Below, in pieces: positions 36,506 through 39,838 of a stretch of 64,000 bases of DNA (position 1 is the first letter of the stretch; each line of letters starts with the position of its first letter). Under the pieces are notes generated by a model, which did not search any database, was not told the origin of the DNA, and saw only the letters and a program-made list of their open reading frames with translations. The DNA lies in NCBI RefSeq assembly GCF_003143995.1, contig NZ_QFWG01000005.1:62001-126000 (forward strand), given 5' to 3'. Source of the DNA: Pseudoglutamicibacter cumminsii. Its GTDB lineage: Bacteria; Actinomycetota; Actinomycetes; Actinomycetales; Micrococcaceae. Position numbers and translations under genes: made by a program.

Positions 36506-37894
36506 ATGCCTAGCTCACAGCAACTATCTCAGCGCCCACGTACTCTCGTCGTAGGTGGTGGATACCTCGGCCTCTACGTTGCCAAGAACCTCCAGAAGAA
36601 GGTTCGTAGCCTCGGCGGCATCGTAACCGTGGTTGATCCGCTTCCATACATGACCTACCAGCCGTTCCTCCCAGAAGTTATGGGTGGATCGATCGAACCA
36701 CGTCACATCACCGTGCCTCACGCACGCTGGCTCCGCCACAGCGAGCTCGTTCGCGGCTCGGTCGTCAGCATCGACCACAAGGCCAAGGAAGCCCTCGTCA
36801 AGGGTGAAGACGGTGAAGAGTTCAACATTCCTTACCAGGATGTCGTCCTCGCGGCCGGCGCGATCACCAAGACGTTCCCGATCCCAGGCCTCGCGGACGC
36901 CGGCATTGGCGTCAAGCGCGTCGAAGAAGCGATCTACCTGCGCGACCACGTTCAGGAGCGCATCCAGTTCGCAGACAACACTGACGACCCTGTAGCACGC
37001 AACCGTGCACTGCGCGTCGTCGTTGTCGGCGGTGGCTTCAACGGCGTTGAGACCATCTCTGAGTTGCACGACGCAGCTGTTCTGGCCGCACAGCGTTGCC
37101 GCAACATCACCCCAGCAGACCTCGACTTCCAGCTCGTCGAAGCGATGGGCAAGATCATGCCTGAGGTCCAGGAAGACTCCGCTAAGTGGGTTGTTGAGCA
37201 CCTCCGCGACCGGGGCATCACCGTGCGCCTCAACACCTCGCTTTCCGACGCGACCGACCGCCACCTCAAGCTCGTCTCGATGCCAGGCGGCGACCCAGTA
37301 GACGAGTTCGACGTCGACACCCTCATCTGGACCGCTGGCGTCCAGGCCAACCCGATGATCCGCGACACCGACCTCAACGTCGAACAGCGCGGCCGCCTGA
37401 CCGTTGACGCGACCCTGCGTTGCGTTGACGCTGACGGCAACGTCATCGAAGGCGCATGGGGTGCAGGCGACATCGCCGCAGTCCCGGACCTCTCCGGTGG
37501 CGGCCTCCCAGACGGCACGTGCGTGCCGAACGCACAGCACGCCGTCCGGCAGGCACCAGTATTGGCAAGCAACCTGCTCGCAGAACGCTACGGCCAGGGC
37601 GAAATCAAGGAATACAAGCACACCAACCTCGGTGCCGTCGCTGGCCTTGGCTACGGCAAGGGCGTAGCCAAGATCATCAAGTTCCCAATGCATGGCTTCC
37701 TCGCGTGGGCTGCGCACCGCGGCTACCACGGCATGGCCATGCCAACCATCGAACGCAAGATCCGCGTCTTCAGCGGTTGGATCAACCAGCTCATCGCAGG
37801 TCGCGATGTGTGGGGCCTGCGCAACGTGAACCGTCCATTCGACGAGTTCCGTAAGGCAGCTTCCCCTAAGAAGAAGGCTGATTCTTCCAAGTAG
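36506..37894 (+). CDS. ndh: type II NADH dehydrogenase
   Basis: A 462-aa single-subunit NDH-2 that passes electrons from NADH to menaquinone without pumping protons. Two dinucleotide motifs are visible: VVGGGYLGLYVAKNLQKK (FAD, about 15-32) and VVVGGGFNGVETISEL (NADH, about 173-188). WTAGVQANP and GAWGAGDIAAVPD complete the family pattern. The C-terminal part (FPMHGFLAWAAHRGYHGMAMP) gives the membrane-binding segment. It has its own promoter and a strong terminator at 37902-37942, so it is monocistronic. Confidence 0.95.
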   Translation: MPSSQQLSQRPRTLVVGGGYLGLYVAKNLQKKVRSLGGIVTVVDPLPYMTYQPFLPEVMGGSIEPRHITVPHARWLRHSELVRGSVVSIDHKAKEALVKGEDGEEFNIPYQDVVLAAGAITKTFPIPGLADAGIGVKRVEEAIYLRDHVQERIQFADNTDDPVARNRALRVVVVGGGFNGVETISELHDAAVLAAQRCRNITPADLDFQLVEAMGKIMPEVQEDSAKWVVEHLRDRGITVRLNTSLSDATDRHLKLVSMPGGDPVDEFDVDTLIWTAGVQANPMIRDTDLNVEQRGRLTVDATLRCVDADGNVIEGAWGAGDIAAVPDLSGGGLPDGTCVPNAQHAVRQAPVLASNLLAERYGQGEIKEYKHTNLGAVAGLGYGKGVAKIIKFPMHGFLAWAAHRGYHGMAMPTIERKIRVFSGWINQLIAGRDVWGLRNVNRPFDEFRKAASPKKKADSSK

Positions 37895-37901
37895 CTCTCA
37901 C

Positions 37902-37949
37902 AGCGAGGTGTTCGGCTGCGAGTATCAGCCGAACACCTCGCTTTCTTTT
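37902..37949 (+). terminator. intrinsic terminator after ndh
   Basis: A 17-bp stem (AGCGAGGTGTTCGGCTG, 37902-37918, with its complement at 37926-37942) and a seven-base loop, then TTCTTTT. Confidence 0.92.
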
Positions 37950-38021: not shown

Positions 38022-38094
38022 GCCCCCATAGCCCAATGGCAGAGGCAGAGGACTTAAAATCCTTTCAGTCTGGGTTCGAGTCCCAGTGGGGGCA
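38022..38094 (+). tRNA. class I tRNA with anticodon UAA (nominal tRNA-Leu)
   Basis: The 73-nt cloverleaf has a perfect 7-bp acceptor (GCCCCCA with TGGGGGC), a 3-bp D stem (GCC/GGC, fourth pair C-A mismatched) with GG in the loop, anticodon stem GAGGA/TCCTT, anticodon loop CTTAAAA giving anticodon TAA (38055-38057), a 5-nt variable loop TCAGT, T arm CTGGG-TTCGAGT-CCCAG and discriminator A. UAA normally decodes the leucine codon UUA and belongs to class II tRNAs with a long variable arm; here that arm is absent. CCA is not encoded. The amino acid it carries is therefore uncertain. A TACATA at 38001-38006 may be its -10 box. Confidence 0.85.
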
Positions 38095-38095
38095 C

Positions 38096-38746
38096 GTGCC
38101 AGGTGTTGATCTGATTCAGCCGATCGCGGTCTTGAAAGACCCCGAGGCTTTAGCGACCCACGAAGATACGTGCCTTGCGGCCGCGCTCGCATCCGTTACC
38201 GCGTGGCTGGCTTTCCCAGATGACCCGATGTGGGAGCCATGGATGTACGGGCCCGACGGCCGCGGCGGTGGCCAAGGTAAAAGCGTGCGTCGAGGCAAAC
38301 CGAAAGACTTCCGTGCACTCGAGACTGCCGGCGCAGTGATGGTGAGCGTCGGAACTGCGAAGGCCGCAGCGCTCGCCCCGACCGAATATCCACTCACCGG
38401 ACGCATGAAGCAACTGCAGGTGTCCGGAACCGAGTTCGAACACACCGGCGAACCAACAGTCCACGGCGACATGGAAGCGCCACGTGTCTTGCACATCGGG
38501 ATTGACACCGTGCTGGGGATGTCGACCGGCAAAGCGGCGGCACAGTCCGCTCACGCGGCCCTGACCTGGGCGATGCAACTCAGCCCGGAAGAACTTGAAG
38601 CCTGGATTGAACACGATTTCCCGTCAACTCTCATCCCACTGGACCGTGACGGATGGCGCACCACAGCAACCAATGCAACCGTTGTGATCCGCGACGCGGG
38701 ACATACCGAAATTAAGTCAGGTTCCGTTACAGCTGTCGCTTGGTGA
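38096..38746 (+). CDS. Pth2-type peptidyl-tRNA hydrolase family protein
   Basis: The 216-aa protein ends with the core motif of Pth2 enzymes, LGMSTGKAAAQSAHAAL (about 139-155), and DAGHTEIKSGSVTAVAW. Pth2 enzymes free tRNAs from stalled peptidyl-tRNA. The N-terminal half contains TCLAAALASVTAWL and a charged loop, as in actinobacterial relatives. The GTG at 38096 is chosen since upstream codons in frame fall inside the tRNA; the gap to the tRNA 3' end (38094) is one nucleotide. tRNA 3' processing would therefore leave an almost leaderless mRNA. No other start is close. An operon of a tRNA and a tRNA-recycling enzyme is suggestive but unproven. Confidence 0.82.
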   Translation: MPGVDLIQPIAVLKDPEALATHEDTCLAAALASVTAWLAFPDDPMWEPWMYGPDGRGGGQGKSVRRGKPKDFRALETAGAVMVSVGTAKAAALAPTEYPLTGRMKQLQVSGTEFEHTGEPTVHGDMEAPRVLHIGIDTVLGMSTGKAAAQSAHAALTWAMQLSPEELEAWIEHDFPSTLIPLDRDGWRTTATNATVVIRDAGHTEIKSGSVTAVAW

Positions 38747-38848
38747 AGCCGACCTGTAGGATAGATCACGGTTCCTTGGACGCGCGTTTCAGCACGTGAA
38801 TCTCACGGGGTGAAGGGCGCCGCCCTAAGAAAAAGAGGTAGAAAATTA

Positions 38849-39838
38849 ATGGCTTACCGCAGCAGTAACCCGGTGTTTAAAGACAAAAACTTCCGAGAGA
38901 AGATGCGGAACGGCGAGGGCGCTGAAGCTATTCACGCGCCTTCGGCAGCAGACCTTGACCGTATGTACGGCGCTCCTTCGGCACAGGCCGGCCAGCAGGC
39001 TCCGCAGCAACCATACGGTTACAACGGTCCACAGAACGCCCCACAGAACCAGTACGGCTACCAGCCGCAGCAGGGTTACGAGCAGCCGAACTACGCTGCA
39101 GGTGACCTGAGCGTCCAGGGTAATCAGGGCGACCGGATGGTTATGGGCGATGTGCTCAACAAGATGACCATCATGCTCGGCCTCATTGTGGCTTCCGGCG
39201 CTGTCGCTTGGTTCCTGGTGATGAACTCGGTCCGCAACGCGATGGCGGGCATGGGTTTCGGCGCGCTGGGCGGCTCGGTTTTCGCGATGGTGGGTATCGC
39301 GGCGCTTGCGGCGTTCGTGATCGCTCTTGTCAACCAGTTCAAGCGGGTTACCTCGCCAACGCTTTCGGTGATCTACGCGGTCCTTGAAGGTTTCGTTCTG
39401 GGTGCGATCTCCGCGATCGCTGAAGTCGCCTACCCTGGTATCGCGCTTCAGGCGGTTCTCGGTACGGTCCTCGTCTTCGCTGTGACCTTGGGCCTGTTCC
39501 GCTCCGGCAAGTACCGCACCTCGCCACGCATGACCCGCATCGTCATGGTTGCGGCAATCGCGTACCTCGCGTTCTCGCTCGTGAACCTTGGCCTCGTGCT
39601 GATCGCGGGTACCTCGATGCGCACGGGCCTCTTCGGCATGGCGATCGGCCTGTTCGCAGTGCTGCTGGCGACCTACTTCCTGGTCATGGACTTCGAGTTC
39701 ATCCAGAACGCAATCTCCCAGGGCGCTCCAAAGCAGGTCGCATGGACCTGCGCTTTCGGCCTGACCTTGACGCTCGTGTGGATCTACATCGAGATCCTGC
39801 GCCTGCTCATGATCATCCGCGAAATGGTGGACCGCTAA
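38849..39838 (+). CDS. Bax inhibitor-1 / YccA family membrane protein
   Basis: The 329-aa protein has an N-terminal soluble region of about 95 residues rich in Gln, Tyr, Pro and Asn (QQAPQQPYGYNGPQNAPQNQYGY...), then seven membrane helices of the TMBIM/BI-1-like YccA group (from KMTIMLGLIVASGAVAWFLV). The last helices contain DFEFIQNAISQGAPKQVAWTCAFGL with the conserved Asp and Gly. Relatives are calcium- or proton-leak channels or protease regulators; the role here is unknown. The ATG at 38849 follows AAAGAGG by 10 nt or more. TAGGAT at 38757-38762 may be a -10 box. A terminator follows. Confidence 0.88.
   Translation: MAYRSSNPVFKDKNFREKMRNGEGAEAIHAPSAADLDRMYGAPSAQAGQQAPQQPYGYNGPQNAPQNQYGYQPQQGYEQPNYAAGDLSVQGNQGDRMVMGDVLNKMTIMLGLIVASGAVAWFLVMNSVRNAMAGMGFGALGGSVFAMVGIAALAAFVIALVNQFKRVTSPTLSVIYAVLEGFVLGAISAIAEVAYPGIALQAVLGTVLVFAVTLGLFRSGKYRTSPRMTRIVMVAAIAYLAFSLVNLGLVLIAGTSMRTGLFGMAIGLFAVLLATYFLVMDFEFIQNAISQGAPKQVAWTCAFGLTLTLVWIYIEILRLLMIIREMVDR

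Follow-up and report, generated by a model that had tools for sequence, protein, structure and literature searches.

A class I tRNA with the leucine anticodon UAA at the chromosomal position of bldA in Pseudoglutamicibacter cumminsii and related Actinomycetota

Streptomyces bldA, a class II tRNA with the anticodon UAA, is a developmental regulator, and this role may not reach beyond Streptomycineae (PMC4255298). Leucine tRNAs that lack the long variable arm are known from several other settings. The mitochondrial tRNA-Leu(UUR) is recognised via A73 and A14 (PMC9976931), two Mycobacterium species carry an extra copy of tRNA-Leu(UAG) with a short variable loop within a tRNA gene cluster (PMC6582537), and Vibrio, Pseudomonas and Streptomyces phages encode class I tRNA-Leu(UAA) genes that are annotated as tRNA-Leu. 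Allo-tRNAs, with 8/4 and 9/3 cloverleaves, have leucine anticodons as well, and some of them insert serine (PMC7609411), while the authors of tRNAscan-SE 2.0 regarded an arm-less human tRNA-Leu(CAA) gene as suspect (PMC8450103). For the Escherichia coli leucyl-tRNA synthetase (LeuRS), a review lists A73, the A15-U48 Levitt pair, G18G19 and A20a as determinants and names A14 too; it reports that neither the sequence nor the folding of the long arm correlates with leucylation, the arm being dispensable for this enzyme (PMC9976931). Our search of the open-access literature did not turn up a bacterial class I tRNA-Leu(UAA). Since this search was limited to open papers, with GtRNAdb outside it, earlier notice by tRNA specialists is possible, and the short UAA genes presumably carry a tRNA-Leu annotation already.

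The stretch of DNA analysed here (the window) comprises 64,000 nucleotides of the genome of P. cumminsii and contains such a gene, flanked by two neighbors that are conserved in other genomes. The features of the locus are as follows.

36506..37894, + strand: type II NADH dehydrogenase-like gene (ndh), the conserved upstream neighbor (Pfam, synteny)
37902..37942, + strand: strong intrinsic-terminator-like hairpin closing ndh (hairpin scan)
38022..38094, + strand: class I tRNA-Leu(UAA) gene, 73 nt, CCA not encoded (ARAGORN, Rfam, three congeners)
38031..38046, + strand: D arm GCCC-AATGGCAG-AGGC, with A14, A15, G18G19, A20a and unpaired C13-A22, the tRNA-Leu core
38055..38057, + strand: anticodon TAA (UAA), from the letters and ARAGORN
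38065..38069, + strand: five-base variable loop TCAGT, where class II tRNAs have a long arm; U48 at 38069
38094..38094, + strand: discriminator A73 (Rfam alignment and core parse)
38096..38746, + strand: gene with a PTH2-type peptidyl-tRNA hydrolase domain (Pfam), its GTG start lying 1 nt past the tRNA end
38810..39838, + strand: Bax-inhibitor-1-like gene (BaxI), the other conserved flank (Pfam, synteny)

ARAGORN calls a tRNA-Leu(taa) at 38022-38095, and Rfam model RF00005 matches 38022-38094 with 61.6 bits (E 6e-11). The stems follow the 7/4/5/5 pattern of a canonical elongator tRNA, the sole departure being the C13-A22 mismatch, so that the 73-nt cloverleaf with a five-base variable loop and the anticodon TAA, as drawn in the preliminary description, was recovered in full. 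At 5 nt the variable loop falls short of the 10 nt or more that defines class II, and the preliminary description was right to regard a class I body with this anticodon as a departure from the textbook class II tRNA-Leu. The fold is further borne out by covariation among 157 distinct relatives, in which every stem pair other than 13-22 is maintained at 94-100%, compensatory changes being frequent, and the fourth D pair is unpaired throughout the family. In three congeners 74 nt of the tRNA gene are 100% identical, whereas the 60 nt on its 5' side are so diverged that just 40 of 65 positions are identical in one of these three; conservation of the tRNA is therefore far above chance.

All the bases that the E. 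coli LeuRS is reported to read, A73, A14, A15-U48, G18G19 and A20a (PMC9976931), are present in the tRNA at 38022-38094, and among the 39 further tRNAs of the genome with which it was compared, not one has the whole core set. A15 and A20a-G21 are present in all 157 class I UAA sequences, and A14, U48 and A73 are each found in 155. This conservation is partly built in, since many of the sequences were retrieved with a pattern in which T48 and part of the D arm are preset; 30 relatives found by BLAST, which are free of this bias, have the same core. C13-A22 is present in 157 of 157 sequences as a criterion of selection, and in 161 of 162 before selection. The preliminary description had singled out this C-A pair as unusual. 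The mismatch is there, but it is not peculiar to this gene: the family has it throughout, and it matches the G-A mismatch at 13-22 in 32 class II leucine sequences, which share the same D-loop layout, and the supposed anomaly is thus a hallmark of tRNA-Leu. The genome encodes one ordinary LeuRS (an 856-codon frame, scoring 958 bits together with a neighboring match). Given the tRNA-Leu core, A73 and this single ordinary enzyme, charging of the short tRNA by LeuRS is well supported, although it is deduced from sequence. LeuRS would recognise the tRNA-Leu-type core (A14, A15-U48, G18G19, A20a and unpaired 13-22) together with A73, and recognition by these elements would be independent of a long variable arm.

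There are 46 tRNA genes in the genome, and the anticodon TAA is found only in the gene at 38022-38094. The four class II tRNA-Leu genes, with normal long arms, have the anticodons CAA, CAG, GAG and TAG. A look through the genome for a class II tRNA-Leu(UAA), as proposed in the preliminary description, found no second or class II TAA gene when RF00005 was run over the whole 2.09 Mb, an assembly that is 98.6% complete, so that such a gene could sit in a gap. With a leucine D-arm pattern allowing up to 3 mismatches, the credible matches over the whole genome were likewise limited to the four class II genes already listed. This arrangement distinguishes the genome from the systems described above. 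Mitochondrial tRNA-Leu(UUR) is, likewise, a leucine tRNA without the long arm, but it is organellar, whereas the bacterial genome analysed here keeps class II for the other leucine anticodons. The UAG copy of Mycobacterium accompanies a normal class II gene, whereas here no UAA gene other than the short one was found, and this form is widespread across Actinomycetota. The phage genes have the same core and a short loop, and differ in being phage-borne and in some cases in having a 6-nt variable loop. Unlike allo-tRNAs, the tRNA has 7/5 acceptor and T stems and a leucine core, and does not belong with them.

The short form proved to be widespread in actinobacteria, where the preliminary description had suggested looking for it. 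Among 59 relatives, 45 match the strict class I pattern and 56 give BLAST matches of some kind. The strict class II TAA pattern, which misses the odd class II genes of genomes G024 and G025 described below, was found in none of the 59, single-contig congeners included. Of 396 genomes sampled across the phylum, 60 match the class I pattern and 84 the class II TAA pattern, while 253 match neither strict pattern. Genomes with one form hardly ever have the other (nominal Fisher p ~4e-6, a value that ignores shared ancestry). Both patterns occur in a single genome, G117; its class I match is not called as a tRNA by ARAGORN and was put down to chance, and we do not count this genome as a carrier of both forms. 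The class I matches listed include named genomes of Mycobacterium, Mycolicibacterium, Nocardia, Gordonia, Rhodococcus, Corynebacterium and Bifidobacterium, and among them are also Microbacterium, Arthrobacter, Rothia, Amycolatopsis, Streptosporangium and Acidimicrobiales.

Outside the phylum, the matches listed include single contigs labelled Chloroflexaceae, Planctomycetota, Rokuibacteriota, Deltaproteobacteria, Chthonomonadales and Acidobacteria, for which binning errors are possible since all are metagenome-assembled. At least 120 IMG/VR stretches carry the short form, as do named Vibrio, Pseudomonas and Streptomyces phages (loci L147, L148, L149 and L150); although Vibrio hosts come from a distant phylum, identity between the Vibrio phage copies and the window gene reaches 89% over about 64 bases. 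Short-armed tRNA-Leu(CAA) genes were observed on a Chloroflexaceae contig (L183:56-131) and at four viral loci (L272, L274, L283 and L345), and the short form therefore extends beyond the UAA anticodon. A subgroup of short-form loci (L086-L094, L159, L169, L206, L212 and L223), several of them labelled Acidimicrobiales or Acidimicrobiaceae, has G-rich 5' acceptor strands resembling GGGGRYG, which indicates large drift of the acceptor stem within the class.

Ndh lies directly upstream of the short tRNA on the same strand at 66 of 178 class I loci, in several families; at two mycobacterial-like-family loci that were checked (L426 and L427), ndh is not beside it. In five Streptomyces-like genomes (family f21, L421-L425), a class II UAA gene of bldA-type sequence is found between ndh and BaxI, at a distance of 5.3-5.9 kb from ndh, with order and orientation as in the window. 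Because ndh, tRNA and BaxI are arranged in the same way, the window tRNA is the positional counterpart of bldA. Both tRNAs have the anticodon UAA, the leucine D-arm core, U48 and A73; the window tRNA differs from bldA in the 5-nt variable loop, C-A at 13-22 and A9, where bldA has a long arm, G-A and G9. It is by gene and position that we liken the window tRNA to this developmental regulator. With a short tRNA at the chromosomal position of bldA (ndh ... tRNA ... BaxI), the UUA tRNA at this place would be arm-less in many families.

Since the strong terminator-like hairpin closes ndh, the tRNA is probably transcribed from its own promoter; a promoter scan at the tRNA found none, and expression of the short tRNA is what we infer. 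With the GTG start of the PTH2 gene one base past the tRNA end, 3' processing of the tRNA could give a near-leaderless PTH2 mRNA. A functional link between the tRNA and the PTH2 gene was considered and dropped from the core account, as the two adjoin only within the genus among 184 loci compared.

UUA is used 12 times in 19,454 codons of the predicted window genes and 41 times in 37,135 codons over 126 kb, in agreement with the rarity expected in the preliminary description; this rarity is explained by GC content. The meaning of the codon was examined against the congener G003, which uses UUA more freely, in 87 gene pairs with a mean identity of 87% (predicted genes only). All 14 UUA codons of P. 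cumminsii in this comparison stand opposite leucine codons of the congener, eight of them changed, and where a UUA codon of the congener differs in P. cumminsii, a leucine codon is opposite in 41 of 46 cases. A PDB search with one UUA-containing protein gave no match. With the anticodon UAA and a codon that behaves as leucine, the gene is, on the evidence of these alignments, a tRNA-Leu(UAA).

We consider it very likely that the gene encodes a functional class I tRNA-Leu(UAA) that is charged by LeuRS, lacks the arm, is the sole UUA reader found in the genome and occupies the position of bldA. The preliminary description had offered other prospects, namely poor charging by LeuRS, charging by another synthetase or a non-decoding role, and the results lend support to none of them. 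Poor charging fits badly with a lone UAA tRNA that carries the E. coli LeuRS determinants, in a genome where UUA behaves as a leucine codon. Charging by another synthetase, such as LysRS, with UUA recoded or mistranslated, might be suspected from overall identity, which is 76% to the genome's own tRNA-Lys(CUU) versus at most 68% to its own class II leucine tRNAs. Identity for LysRS, however, rests on U35 and U36, which are absent from the window tRNA. Its UUA codons align with leucine codons, the LeuRS determinants are present, and the five new codon reassignments found in a screen of more than 250,000 genomes concern arginine codons (PMC8629427), so that we regard this explanation as very unlikely. 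Even less probable, to the point of being hard to credit, is a pseudogene or a tRNA with a non-decoding task such as non-ribosomal aminoacyl transfer: the class is unusual for this anticodon, but strict phylum-wide conservation with covariation, and a genome in which no other UAA tRNA was found and UUA is still used as leucine, speak against it.

A leucine-specific regulator resembling bldA, scarce or weakly charged, with rare UUA codons gating selected genes, is closer to the evidence, and is also what the preliminary description had in mind when it proposed that a decoder of UUA could be regulatory. The locus is that of bldA, UUA is rare, and the adjacent PTH2 gene has UUA at codon 19, which is kept in four congeners. 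On the other hand, UUA shows no start-of-gene bias outside Streptomycineae and sometimes occurs in growth genes (PMC4255298). Rarity that follows from GC content needs no regulatory reading, and the freer use of UUA in the congener also argues against one. The position and the codon rarity thus agree with the proposal, the published analysis outside Streptomycineae does not, and we consider a bldA-like role unlikely. An ordinary working leucine-inserting tRNA of unexpected build is the most likely reading.

As to origin, the class I sequences group with class II leucine tRNAs in trees only if the D-arm columns are included. Trees without these columns keep the two apart, and the likeness of the D arms could be the result of convergence. 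Ancestry from tRNA-Lys, considered on the ground of overall similarity, was rejected as weak and contradicted by the codon meaning. In two genomes of the window's family, G024 and G025 (L409 and L410, context L419 and L420), a class II TAA gene lies downstream of ndh; these genes have an unusual D loop (TATACAC) and an acceptor and T arm like those of local class I genes, giving them the appearance of chimeras. In the G024 gene a class II core stands between a prefix of 8 nt and a suffix of 28 nt that also occur in a relative's class I gene. Outer parts of class I type in both genes, around a class II core in G024, suggest from sequence comparison that switching between the classes takes place in situ. 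It is possible, though we put this forward tentatively and would rather doubt than assert it, that a UUA tRNA-Leu at one ancestral actinomycetote locus underwent more than one switch between class II and class I, and that phages, which carry the short form, may have helped to spread it. If so, leucine identity in living bacteria would not depend on the variable arm, and a switch of class might free the tRNA from enzymes or toxins that read the arm.

As a rule, bacterial leucine tRNAs are taken to be class II, and on this basis identity is assigned and odd tRNAs are judged suspect. An arm-less UUA-reading tRNA-Leu is found across a large part of Actinomycetota, including loci of Mycobacterium, Nocardia, Corynebacterium and Bifidobacterium, and bears on the isotype models used in annotation and on toxins that target tRNAs by reading the variable arm. 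The short form would be a natural test of the in vitro result that LeuRS has no need of the arm, and bldA gains an unexpected short-armed counterpart.
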